A DNA stretch of 64,000 nucleotides from an uncultured Roseicyclus sp. Lineage in GTDB: Bacteria > Pseudomonadota > Alphaproteobacteria > Rhodobacterales > Rhodobacteraceae. Position 1 is the first letter of the stretch. Each line of letters begins with the position of its first letter. Both the position numbers and the translations under genes were made by a program. Positions 9,451 through 13,504 of the stretch are shown one piece after another. Below the pieces are notes generated by a model. The model saw nothing but the letters and a program-made list of their open reading frames with translations. It ran no database searches and was not told where the DNA came from. The stretch is taken from positions 372,001 through 436,000 of the forward strand of contig CANLLF010000004.1 of the NCBI GenBank assembly GCA_947491935.1. The letters run 5' to 3'.

Positions 9451-10520
9451 AACAAATGCCCCGACTTGTCGCGTTTCACATCCAGGTAATGGGCATTGAA
9501 GCGGTTGGTCGGCGTCACCAGCGGCACCCGTTCGACCACCTCGATCCCTTCTTCACCCATCATCTCGACCTTGCGGGGATTGTTCGTCATCAACCGCACG
9601 GCGCCAAACCCCATCCGTTTCAGCAAATCGGCCCCGATCCGAAAGTCCCGTTCATCGTCCTCGAACCCCAGCCGATGGTTGGCTTCGACGGTGTCGAATC
9701 CCTGATCCTGCAACGCATAGGCCCGCATCTTGTTGGCCAGCCCGATCCCACGCCCCTCCTGGTTGAGGTAGAGCAGTACGCCTTCACCCGCCTTGCCCAT
9801 CTCCTGCAGCGCCGTGCGCAATTGCGGGCCGCAATCGCATTTCATCGATCCAAGCACATCGCCGGTGAAACAGGCCGAATGGAGTCGTGCCAGCACCGGT
9901 TGCGCGCGGTCTGGCCGCCCGATCTCGATCGCGTAGTGTTCGATTTCCGCATTGTCGGGGCGGAAGATGTGCAGCCGCCCGGCCTCGGCCAGCTCCATCG
10001 GCAGCTGCGCGGTTGCGACGGCGGCCATTGGTGCATGCCCGGCAAGGTCCTCGGCGGCGGCTTCCGCAGGCAGGGCCGTCAGGCCCTCCGGCACTTGCGA
10101 CACCGAAACCGCCGCAACGGCCGGCAGAAGTTGCGCCGATTTCGCCAGAACAAGCGCCAGACGGTGCAGACTGGCATCTCCCTCACGCTCTTCACGGAAC
10201 GGCCCCCGCAGCGGCGCACCCAGATCGCAGGCCGGGTCGGCCAGCTCACACAACCACCGCGCGCCTGCATCTGCCGGCATCCGGATCCGGGCGATATCGC
10301 CATCATAGATCCGCACCTTCAAGGTTTCCGCGCGCCATCCGGTGATCGCCGCGACAACCGGGCCCAGGGCGCGCAGCCCCCCCAATCGCGTGTCCGATGC
10401 CGTCTCGCATGCCATGACCACCAGCGCGTGATCGCTCGCTTTCAGCGCCACGGGTAATCCCACCCGCAGGTCACTGCGGGCGCGGGCCACAAGGTCGGAA
10501 ATGGTGGGCTGAAGGCTCAT
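9447..10520 (-). CDS. ribA: GTP cyclohydrolase II with N-terminal extension
   Basis: The C-terminal 200 residues are a full GTP cyclohydrolase II, the first step of riboflavin synthesis. Its zinc site is CFTGDVLGSMKCDCG and its active-site stretch is LYLNQEGRGIGLANK, followed by LMTNNPRKVE. The N-terminal 150 residues have no recognisable DHBP-synthase (RibB) motifs, so this is not a standard RibBA fusion. The extension may be a degenerate or regulatory domain; similar extended RibA proteins occur in Rhodobacterales. The gene is divergent from the response regulator, with 151 bases between the starts. Confidence 0.93.
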   Translation of the reverse strand: MSLQPTISDLVARARSDLRVGLPVALKASDHALVVMACETASDTRLGGLRALGPVVAAITGWRAETLKVRIYDGDIARIRMPADAGARWLCELADPACDLGAPLRGPFREEREGDASLHRLALVLAKSAQLLPAVAAVSVSQVPEGLTALPAEAAAEDLAGHAPMAAVATAQLPMELAEAGRLHIFRPDNAEIEHYAIEIGRPDRAQPVLARLHSACFTGDVLGSMKCDCGPQLRTALQEMGKAGEGVLLYLNQEGRGIGLANKMRAYALQDQGFDTVEANHRLGFEDDERDFRIGADLLKRMGFGAVRLMTNNPRKVEMMGEEGIEVVERVPLVTPTNRFNAHYLDVKRDKSGHLL

Positions 10521-10671
10521 GGGTCAAACCCTTACCGCGCCCTGCAGGGAAATTGAAACATTCCCTCACACACTCACACACGCCCGTGAGGCATGGTTAC
10601 ATCCGTAGACAAACCGCACCCCACGCGGTCATGTCATCGCAACGGAACACGAAAGACGGGAGGCCACGCAT

Positions 10672-11358
10672 ATGGCAAACCTCAAGAAAATCCTTCTGGT
10701 CGACGACGATGATGACCTGCGCGAAGCGCTGAGCGAACAGCTTGTGATGACCGAGGACTTCGACGTGTTCGAGGCCGCCAACGGATCGCAGGCGATGGAC
10801 CGCGCCAAGGAAGGCATCTACGACCTCGTGATCCTCGATGTGGGCCTGCCCGATACCGATGGCCGCGAATTGTGCCGCCTGATGCGCAAACAGGGCGTGA
10901 AATGCCCGGTTCTGATGCTGACGGGCCACGACAGCGACGCCGACACGATCCTGGGCCTGGACGCCGGGGCCAACGACTACGTAACGAAACCGTTCCGCTT
11001 CCCGGTTCTGCTGGCCCGCATCCGCGCGCAACTGCGCCAGCATGAGCAATCCGAGGATGCCGTCTTCCAACTGGGGCCGTACACCTTCAAGCCGGCCATG
11101 AAGATGCTGATCACCGAGGACGAGCGGAAGATCCGCCTGACCGAGAAAGAGACCAACATCCTCAAATTCCTCTACCGCGCGCAGGATGGTGTCGTGGCCC
11201 GCGATGTGCTGCTGCACGAGGTCTGGGGCTATAATGCCGGTGTCACCACCCACACGCTGGAGACGCATATTTACCGCCTGCGCCAGAAAATCGAACCAGA
11301 TCCGTCAAATGCCCGCCTTCTTGTGACCGAATCCGGCGGCTATCGTCTGGTTGCGTGA
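10672..11358 (+). CDS. OmpR-family response regulator (CenR-like candidate)
   Basis: This 228-residue protein has a receiver domain (about 6-118) with the acidic pocket D11-D15, phospho-acceptor D56, T84 and K106. A winged-helix DNA-binding domain (about 130-226) ends in VTESGGYRLVA. No sensor kinase gene is adjacent. In Rhodobacter sphaeroides an orphan OmpR-type regulator (RSP_0847, later named CenR, an essential envelope and division regulator, as I recall) carries the small RNA SorX in its 3' UTR. Here two small-RNA-like units follow the stop codon directly, which supports orthology. The exact name should be confirmed by alignment. Confidence 0.92.
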   Translation: MANLKKILLVDDDDDLREALSEQLVMTEDFDVFEAANGSQAMDRAKEGIYDLVILDVGLPDTDGRELCRLMRKQGVKCPVLMLTGHDSDADTILGLDAGANDYVTKPFRFPVLLARIRAQLRQHEQSEDAVFQLGPYTFKPAMKMLITEDERKIRLTEKETNILKFLYRAQDGVVARDVLLHEVWGYNAGVTTHTLETHIYRLRQKIEPDPSNARLLVTESGGYRLVA

Positions 11359-11457
11359 CGGACAAGATTCCCCGGTACCGGGATCCCGACCTCCCTCGGG
11401 AATGGTATCACTCTCCCTGTTGGACTTGGCCCGGACGTTCGCGTCCGGGTCTTTTTT
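11359..11457 (+). ncRNA. Candidate 3'-UTR small RNA, unit 1 (SorX-like)
   Basis: The 99 bases after the response-regulator stop contain CCTCCCTCG and CTCTCCCTGTTGG, both C/U-rich anti-Shine-Dalgarno-like motifs, and then an intrinsic terminator (stem 11430-11437 with 11442-11449, UUCG loop, six T). This is the layout of an mRNA-derived, Hfq-type small RNA. SorX of Rhodobacter sphaeroides is made from the 3' UTR of an OmpR-type regulator gene, and I infer this is its counterpart. The 5' processing site cannot be placed from sequence. Confidence 0.55.
11430..11457 (+). terminator. Intrinsic terminator of the response-regulator transcript
   Basis: An 8-base perfect stem CCCGGACG/CGTCCGGG is closed by the very stable TTCG tetraloop and followed by TC and six T residues. 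It ends the regulator mRNA or the small RNA derived from it. Confidence 0.9.
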
Positions 11458-11460
11458 ATG

Positions 11461-11572
11461 CGGGAGACGCCGGGATTGACCCACATCAAATCGCGCCACG
11501 CATTGGCGGTTTATGCCCAATGGCACAACCTCCCTGTTGTCTGGCCCGGACCATCGCGTCCGGGTTTTTTTT
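11461..11572 (+). ncRNA. Candidate small RNA, unit 2 (tandem copy)
   Basis: The block 11519-11572 repeats the order of unit 1: AATGG, then CTCCCTGTTG, then TGGCCCGGAC, then CGCGTCCGGG and a T tract. Unit 1 shows the same elements from 11401 to 11457. The similarity over about 55 bases, outside any gene, points to a tandem duplication. The 60 bases between the two terminators would be its 5' part or hold a separate promoter. It could be an independent small RNA or a back-up terminator. Confidence 0.45.
11545..11572 (+). terminator. Second intrinsic terminator, paralogous to the first
   Basis: A 7-base stem CCCGGAC/GTCCGGG with a CATCGC loop is followed by eight T residues. It differs from the first terminator mainly in the loop. 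It lies 28 bases before the start of the next gene, whose promoter must therefore overlap or follow it. Confidence 0.88.
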
Positions 11573-11599
11573 GCCGCGCGGCGCGGCTAGGCTATCGGT

Positions 11600-13504
11600 A
11601 TGCTCTGCTTACTCCGTCGCTGCCTTGGCCCCGCCCTGATTTGCCTCCTTCCCGCACCGGCCTTGGCCGATAGCCATGAGGTCGTTGATTCGTTCTGGAT
11701 GGATGGTGGCCTGCCGCCCACCGGGCGGTGGTCCTCCTTCGCGCCCGGGTTTTCTCCCGGCTTCGTGTCGGTTGCGCGCCATGATGGCGTGTCCGGCACC
11801 GTGATGATGAGCTGCGGGACAGGCGCGGATCTCGAAGGGCTCGGCCTGGGCCTGAACTTCGCGGTTCCCCCGGACATCGACCCCGATGAGGGCGCGTTTT
11901 TCGTGCAGGTGGGTGATCTGGTACTCCCGGCGGGTGGTGAGCCGCAGGTGGTCGATGGCCAATTCGTCGGCATCGGCGTTCCGAGTGTGCAGGGCGGCTA
12001 TCCCAACCCGTACTGGCCCGGCCAGATTGCCCTCTTGCGTGCGCTGGCGGGGGAGGCCCGGATCGGGGCCCTTCATGCCGCCGACGGGGTGCAAGACAAC
12101 GCGGTTCCCGTCTGGTCCATGACCACGCAAGGGGCCGATGGCCTGAGCGCCCTGCGCGAGAATTGCGGGGATCTTTCCCCGCTGGCAGATCGGGAACCGG
12201 CAGAGGCTCCGGCTCCGGCTCCTGCGCCGTCCGGGGCGGCTGCCTGGGTTTTTGTCCCCTCCGATCGGCCCGCCTTTTACGACCGCGCCGACTTCATGCG
12301 CGGGGATACGTTCGGCCTCACCCTCTACTGCGATCCGCGATATGACGGGATCGGCTACGGGATCGATACCGAGGTCATGCAGGCCTCCGGGTTCGAATGG
12401 GGAGATACCCTGCTTCTGGTCGTGGATGGCGAGGAGGTGCCGATGCCGCTTGCAGCCACCGATGTGGGCTATGTCTCGGCGGAGGGCGCAGCCTATGCGC
12501 CTTGGATCGGTGGCCCTGAAGCGATGACGGCACTTCTGGGTGCCGGGCAAGCTGCCCTGGTGCGGGTTGCCGCCGCGGATGGCGCGCGGACCGAAATTTT
12601 CGACTTGACCACCGATCAGGTCGACGGCCTGCGCCCCGTGGTCGAGGTCTGTGGCGCTAGCGCTGTGTTGGAGGCCCCCGAGACACCGGCAAATGACGGC
12701 GAGGCTCAGCCGGAACCGTCCGCCCTAACGACAGCCGAACCCGAACCCGCGGCTCAGCCCGAGCAGGCTGCGCCAACTGGCCCGGCCTTTGCCGAGACGC
12801 CGATCCCGCCGGATGTCACCCTTGGACCCACCGCCGTTTCCGGCCCAGGCGGCGCGTCGTGGGAATTGACGGCCGGAACGGACCGCTGGTCCACCCTGAC
12901 GGGGCGCCAGACGGACCCTGATACCGGAATCGAATTAGGTGCGGCCTGCGCCGAGACAGGGCCGGTCTTCTACCTGCGGCTGACAGGCCCTGCGGAGCCC
13001 CGCGACGATGTCAGCCTGCTGGTGGATGATGATCAGCAATTCTTCGTCGATGGGGGTGGATTCGATAACCTGCTGTTCTTCGAGCCCGCCCCCGGCCTTA
13101 TCGACGCGTTGAGCCTGGGCGCGAACGTGGACGTGTTCGGCAGCTTTCCACCGGCGCGATTCCATCTGCGCGGCTCCATGCGGGCGCTGGATGCCGCGCT
13201 TGCGGCTTGCCGGGATCAGCGGCCAAGCGATGCCGGCACGGCGGAGGACCAATTCCTGACCGACCTTCTGGAGCGTGTTGTGCAATCGTGCAGCAATATC
13301 GGCTCCACCGGCGGGGCCTTGGGCGAAGGCGCGGTGAGCTTTTCGGAGGCCGGGGCGGAAGTCGACTACAGGAATATCCGCTGTGAGGGCACGGGATCTG
13401 CAGCTAGTATAGGGGCGGGATTCTGTGGTGCGCGCGGCTGCCTTGTCGAGACCTGGATGCGGGATGAAGAGGGCTTCGCCTTGACCGATCAGACGATGCG
13501 CTAA
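11600..13504 (+). CDS. Secreted protein with three divergent repeats, function unknown
   Basis: The 634-residue protein begins with a signal peptide (about 1-23, ending ALA-DSHE) and should be periplasmic or exported. I can see three divergent repeats of about 110-160 residues: roughly 26-192, 212-352 and 412-545. Each has a Trp near its start, a Cys in the first third (MSCG, LYCD, AACA), a central acidic beta segment such as LLLVVDGEEV or SLLVDDDQQF, a small alpha segment with a Pro-x-x-Ile/Met-x-x-Leu pattern, and a closing Cys (ENCGD, VEVCG, AACRD). Ala/Pro/Glu-rich linkers separate them. A C-terminal segment has four more cysteines. The repeats faintly recall IalB-type beta domains. I do not recognise the family. 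Confidence 0.75.
   Translation: MLCLLRRCLGPALICLLPAPALADSHEVVDSFWMDGGLPPTGRWSSFAPGFSPGFVSVARHDGVSGTVMMSCGTGADLEGLGLGLNFAVPPDIDPDEGAFFVQVGDLVLPAGGEPQVVDGQFVGIGVPSVQGGYPNPYWPGQIALLRALAGEARIGALHAADGVQDNAVPVWSMTTQGADGLSALRENCGDLSPLADREPAEAPAPAPAPSGAAAWVFVPSDRPAFYDRADFMRGDTFGLTLYCDPRYDGIGYGIDTEVMQASGFEWGDTLLLVVDGEEVPMPLAATDVGYVSAEGAAYAPWIGGPEAMTALLGAGQAALVRVAAADGARTEIFDLTTDQVDGLRPVVEVCGASAVLEAPETPANDGEAQPEPSALTTAEPEPAAQPEQAAPTGPAFAETPIPPDVTLGPTAVSGPGGASWELTAGTDRWSTLTGRQTDPDTGIELGAACAETGPVFYLRLTGPAEPRDDVSLLVDDDQQFFVDGGGFDNLLFFEPAPGLIDALSLGANVDVFGSFPPARFHLRGSMRALDAALAACRDQRPSDAGTAEDQFLTDLLERVVQSCSNIGSTGGALGEGAVSFSEAGAEVDYRNIRCEGTGSAASIGAGFCGARGCLVETWMRDEEGFALTDQTMR

Follow-up and report, generated by a model that had tools for sequence, protein, structure and literature searches.

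A tandem SorX-like small RNA locus behind a cenR-like gene and a predicted FnrL-dependent promoter on its second unit

Two small RNAs that share a seed and differ in origin are likely to be encoded behind a cenR-like gene in the window, the 64,000-nucleotide stretch of DNA analysed here (G000:C4:372001-436000, from a genome of 4.65 Mb): unit 1 would be SorX, and unit 2 a separate gene driven by FnrL. Comparison across the family leads us to favour, with somewhat less assurance, a broader reading in which SorX, known as a singlet-oxygen RNA, doubles in many Rhodobacteraceae as a low-oxygen RNA driven by FnrL, starting at the processed 5' end, and in which tandem loci split the two modes and carry a minimal copy of about 50 nt. 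This broader reading has to be set against the published report that R. sphaeroides SorX acquires its 5' end by RNase E cleavage (PMC6238624).

The cenR-like gene and its two downstream units

The gene at 10672..11358 (+) encodes an OmpR-family response regulator (Pfam Response_reg and Trans_reg_C) and would provide the host mRNA of unit 1. Its protein shares 93% identity with one from Rhodovulum robiginosum, and the best 25 of its 71 NCBIfam matches included none above its cut-off. In R. sphaeroides, RSP_0847 is described under the new name CenR and as essential (PMC9275681). Because SorX follows the gene and the neighbourhood is conserved, we infer, from the locus rather than from the RSP_0847 sequence itself, that the window's regulator is the counterpart of RSP_0847/CenR. 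The proposal in the earlier note of a regulator of this kind is supported, with at least one SorX-like unit present at 108 of the 137 cenR loci sampled across the family.

Two units lie 3' of the cenR-like gene, both on its strand. They share, in the order that the earlier note had given, AATGG (11401, 11519), CTCCCTGTTG (11413, 11530), GGCCCGGAC, CGCGTCCGGG and a T tract (T6 and T8, respectively), and the terminator claimed at the end of each block was recovered by a scan of 10400-11700, which gave two, with stems at 11428-11451 and 11543-11566. The terminator count alone says little, because shuffled versions of the same region yielded a mean of 1.0 (sd 1.0). Nor is CTCCCTGTTG rare by itself, with 7 copies genome-wide versus 6 for the reversed word (4.65 Mb); what stands out is that two copies lie 117 bp apart within a longer similarity.

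Unit 1 (11391..11457, +), which we interpret as derived from the 3' UTR, comprises a 5' hairpin whose loop displays CUCCC (11384..11401, +, in the fold of 11381-11458), the CTCCCTGTTG seed (11413..11422, +, by sequence match) and a terminator (11428..11457, +, by the terminator scan). Unit 2 (11524..11573, +) is predicted to be a small RNA of about 50 nt that depends on FnrL, its start being placed by a spacing of -41.5 with an uncertainty of about 2 nt. Within its CTCCCTGTTG seed (11530..11539, +), CUCCCU sits in a hairpin loop closed by ACAAC/GUUGU, as judged from sequence and fold, and a terminator (11543..11573, +, by the scan) follows. The fold of unit 2 has a z of -3.17, with 1 of 200 shuffles equally good. 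AATGG is indeed present in both blocks, but the copy in unit 2 precedes the predicted start and would for that reason belong to the promoter rather than to the RNA. ACAAC before and GTTGT after CTCCCT were also seen in other second units of the genus (window 11524-11541, L053 and L057), where the pair would expose CUCCCU in a hairpin loop; no such flanks surround CTCCCT in the second units of L111, L132, L135, L144 and L162.

The Rfam SorX model (RF02784) matched both blocks within the 901 bases searched, unit 1 at 38.1 bits (E 1.8e-7) and unit 2, over 11493-11571, at 33.2 bits (E 5e-6). The Infernal check suggested earlier thus found both units, but each below the gathering score of 46.6; they ranked second and third of 13 whole-genome SorX matches with E up to 1. 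On its sequence, unit 1 is a diverged SorX, because the unit at the same place within the genus scores up to 69.6 bits to the SorX model (G079, L053). It lies directly 3' of the cenR/RSP_0847-type gene on the same strand, an arrangement found at 108 of the 137 loci, and has a CTCCCTGTTGGA segment followed by a terminator, as in SorX. Unit 2 is called SorX-like and not SorX because its 33.2 bits fall below the gathering cut-off. The claim of a SorX-like RNA at this locus is therefore upheld, with unit 1 as SorX at its known place after a gene of the CenR kind. Throughout the order, 389 of 390 genomes had a SorX match with E up to 1, and 330 had one above the cut-off; the corresponding counts in control genomes were 8/14 and 0/14.

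The best SorX match of the window genome (47.6 bits, above the cut-off) is at C3:441751-441822 on the minus strand (L038), not behind cenR, and is perhaps a SorY counterpart. Another unit, L042 (C3:89390-89469), combines CTCCCTGTTGGACTT with a terminator and scored 27.4 bits to SorX. The seed is common to these two units and to units 1 and 2.

SorX of R. sphaeroides is reported to be a 75-nt RNase E product of the RSP_0847 mRNA (PMC6238624), which is transcribed from an RpoHI/II promoter (PMC3320616). Unit 1 is its counterpart: SorX occupies the same site behind cenR/RSP_0847, with the same CUCCCUGUUGG seed and a terminal terminator. SorX has been described as a single RNA from a 3' UTR with an RpoHI/II promoter, whereas the window adds a shorter second unit with an FnrL-type promoter, the predicted RNA of which (from the predicted start at 11524) would lack the 5' hairpin of SorX. 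SorY of R. sphaeroides (RF02651) aligns with the same CUCCCUGUUGGACUU segment as the window units and is reported to have its own promoter (PMC6238624). SorY differs from them in lying elsewhere in the genome and in its reported dependence on RpoHI/RpoHII (PMC5036791), and the window units fall short of SorY membership, scoring 35.2 and 19.5 bits where the gathering score is 111.

An FNR box ahead of unit 2 and across the Rhodobacteraceae

Unit 2 is preceded by an FNR/FnrL box, TTGACCCACATCAA (11476..11489, +), that matches TTGAY-N4-RTCAA at 10/10 scored positions. A predicted -10, TATGCC (11512..11517, +), lies 29 nt past the box centre; it is weak, matching 2/3 scored positions with the final T missing, and a sigma-70 scan of 10400-11700 found no promoter. 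The distances between box, predicted -10 and predicted start are those of an FNR class-II promoter. Because a perfect box and a weak -10 stand at class-II spacing, unit 2 is most likely its own FnrL-dependent gene, with a predicted product of about 50 nt. The short box arrangement seen in the window places the predicted start a few bases ahead of the seed, so that the RNA would consist of seed and terminator (here ~11524-11573). FnrL itself is encoded in the window genome (NF045989, 438.2 bits, cut-off 300).

A ChIP-seq site for FnrL has been reported in R. sphaeroides in the putative promoter region of RSs2461, where its effect was not measurable (PMC4263372), and RSs2461 is given as the former name of SorX (PMC5036791). 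This published site fits the reading of an FnrL promoter. Among the matches listed, and with the original SorX paper outside the search, we found no literature linking FnrL to SorX under that name; papers naming both drew no connection between them in the passages matched, those of PMC8307010 contained no SorX-FnrL link, and those of the CenKR papers searched made no mention of SorX or of a small RNA.

An even sample of the family took a single genome from each genus, 150 in all, of which 140 have cenR and 10 lack it at the cut-off. We analysed 137 cenR loci, the window's own included; G441 and G489 were left out as lying at a contig edge, and G509 because its match was partial. Units were scored as CTCCCTG followed by a hairpin and a T-run, and boxes as at least 9/10 positions; both the definition of a box and the rule for terminators are ours. 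One unit was found by this rule at 103 loci, two at 5 and none at 29. A box accompanied 41 of the 113 SorX-like units, 34 of them perfectly, and 72 of the 113 had no box by the rule. The reversed and the complemented box gave one match each (both nines), and 55,057 downstream positions contained two nines and no tens. The box precedes the seed by 69-76 nt in 29 of the 41, by 45-47 nt in 6 and by other distances (63-88) in 6.

A -10 element recurred at the same place. Over 48 boxed rows (the 41 boxed units and 7 further loci; L086 repeats G402), TAnnnT peaked at 0.58 at an offset of 29 from the box centre, the next value being 0.44 at 23 and the rest at most 0.34. The predicted +1, 41.5 from the box centre, was also compared with the start of the SorX model in 14 genomes, and the two were separated by 0 nt in 6, 1 nt in 4, 3 nt in 1, 7 nt in 2 and 8 nt in 1. 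These were the boxed genomes with known SorX coordinates or locus, 6 with a perfect box and 8 new ones; the latter came from 9 boxed loci among the 30 loci L008-L037, of which L014 is G264 and had already been counted. At L016 the 10/10 box was used, a second box (9/10) lying 19 nt further upstream.

The motif recurs at other cenR loci: CTCCCTGTTG occurs within 600 nt of the stop in 57 of 80 named cenR loci, first at 36-318 nt past the stop and twice in 3, and CTCCCTG occurs in 63. Three of the 17 named loci with no CTCCCTG end early at contig ends. At L150, L151, L152, L158 and L161 the FNR box and the stop codon of cenR overlap, with the TGA inside the TTGA of the box, so that the promoter would begin inside the gene.

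A wider search through 394 genomes recovered TTGAY-N4-RTCAA-N25-55-CTCCCTG in 38; the reversed pattern gave 1. Of all 38 places, 14 had a T-run terminator no more than 75 nt from the seed, and 13 of these 14 lay after cenR. Treating the 38 as one class was rejected, as 24 have no terminator near the seed and part of them form a second family. This second family stands behind perfect FNR boxes near the middle of loci L143, L145, L146, L163, L165, L166, L393, L394 and L395. Its predicted RNA, of about 130 nt, would carry CUCCCUG early, in most cases also CUCUCCCUCG, and a stem resembling a terminator whose loop contains CUCCC; scans of two of these loci, L145 and L163, gave no Rfam family above threshold. 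It looks like another FnrL-driven small RNA, which we put forward as a prediction.

Tandem loci and rival explanations

We assembled 12 tandem loci: the family sample gave 5, the window's genus 3 (G029, G079, G390) and the named loci 4. At L115 the second unit was missed by the terminator rule and added by hand; L144 and L162, tandem loci with a boxed second unit, were left out as having been found through the box, and a second unit at 587 in L118 (CTCCCAG, with no box) was left out because its seed differs. The box was on unit 2 only in 8 loci, on unit 1 only in 1 (9/10 positions) and on neither in 3; against an even split, 8 versus 1 gives p 0.039, and counting the window's genus once gives 5 versus 1, p 0.22. 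In G000, G029, G390, G079, L111, L132 and L135 the second unit has a perfect TTGAY-N4-RTCAA, placed 42-47 nt ahead of the seed, and the first units reach 8/10 at best; unit 1 of L057 likewise has an 8/10 match.

The earlier note had seen here a duplicated small RNA of the 3' UTR and thought it new. A second, related unit is indeed present, but its assignment to the 3' UTR is not supported: unit 2 lies behind the terminator of unit 1 and has an FNR box of its own, absent from the earlier note, as do 7 other second units among the 12 tandem loci. A second unit is uncommon (5 of the 137 sample loci), yet not unique. All 13 genomes of the window's genus have CTCCCTG after cenR, and only 4 of the 13 have a boxed second unit. 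On the genus tree, the base of which is unresolved, the boxed second unit is scattered over three groups beside relatives that have none; it may therefore have been either lost or gained repeatedly.

Both units might instead be cut from the long 3' UTR of one cenR transcript, by read-through of the first terminator. Their position behind cenR on one strand would suit such an origin, as would the reported cutting of R. sphaeroides SorX from the RSP_0847 mRNA (PMC6238624) and the second units of L115, G467 and G046, which have no box. Against it stand the terminator that follows unit 1 and the perfect FNR box of unit 2 at class-II distance. In G079, moreover, an open reading frame separates the two units, and G520 has a boxed unit with no cenR in the preceding 1 kb, ahead of an xthA-like gene (by eye); because of these two cases, a boxed unit can stand as a separate gene. 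We regard a single processed transcript as unlikely. It is still less probable, and indeed hard to credit, that unit 2 is a mere back-up terminator, similar through duplication and giving no RNA of its own: the terminator stems are almost identical, but the seed is kept over 10 bases, the box is at promoter distance, and boxed second units occur in several genera.

The box could also be read by another regulator of the CRP/FNR family, so that the signal would not be oxygen through FnrL. The window genome contains three more PF00325 matches, at least one of CRP/FNR type by eye, and the CrpK and FnrL regulons are reported to overlap in R. sphaeroides (PMC4263372). A symmetric box nevertheless suits FNR proteins, and the ChIP-seq site at RSs2461 belongs to FnrL (PMC4263372), which leaves a different regulator improbable. 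We accordingly retain FnrL as the preferred activator of unit 2.

Proposed mechanism, targets and significance

From what the DNA itself displays (the units, their terminators, the box and its spacing, the family-wide -10 peak and the FnrL gene) we infer a scheme of transcription, oxygen response, processing, pairing, targets and history. At low oxygen, FnrL would bind 11476-11489 and activate the class-II promoter, with a start near 11524 and a product of about 50 nt that hardly extends beyond seed and terminator. Both RNAs would use CUCCCUGUUG to base-pair with Shine-Dalgarno regions and would thereby stop the same group of mRNAs from being translated. Many single-unit relatives would have the FnrL promoter directly ahead of SorX, with the start at the mature 5' end of SorX; in tandem loci the promoter is mostly on the second unit, which looks as if inputs had been divided up once the unit was duplicated.

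According to published work, SorX prevents the translation of potA and SorY acts on takP (PMC6238624). In the window genome, ACAGGGAG-N3-10-ATG occurs at 20 places versus 7 for the reversed motif (L186 and L187 being one site), and five of the 20 precede genes for solute-binding proteins (Pfam). Among relatives we took 30 loci for each motif, one per genome, and set aside 5 of the 30 test loci because an upstream A-run shows them to be a terminator unit read on its antisense strand. Among ORFs of 100 aa or more that follow the sites, solute-binding proteins (Pfam) accounted for 8/22 with CAACAGGGAG and for 7/20 with the same-composition control ACCAAGGGAG. The seed complement is thus not separated from the control, and the results do not support a preference of the seed for transporter genes.

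Other systems resemble parts of this arrangement. FnrS of enterobacteria is, like the proposed unit 2, a small RNA activated by FNR without oxygen, as described in PMC4263372; it sits elsewhere and is likened to unit 2 by mode of action, not as a family member. AbcR1 and AbcR2 of Sinorhizobium meliloti (alpha-r15) are described as tandem homologous RNAs with anti-Shine-Dalgarno motifs, as here. They differ in their reported lengths (121 and 114 nt), their place beside lsrB, their own promoters and an LsrB motif at abcR1, and the text matched mentions no FNR box, whereas unit 2 of the window has one.

What stands out is a predicted FnrL-type promoter before SorX, indicated by sequence and by one published ChIP-seq site; it recurs well beyond the window and is placed here on the second copy. 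If this is true, one seed would serve both oxidative stress, through processing, and oxygen limitation, through an FNR promoter. The reported 5' end of SorX in R. sphaeroides may then mix cleaved and primary RNA, because the predicted FnrL start agrees with the mature end, and tandem loci would be places where regulatory inputs have been split between duplicated small RNAs.
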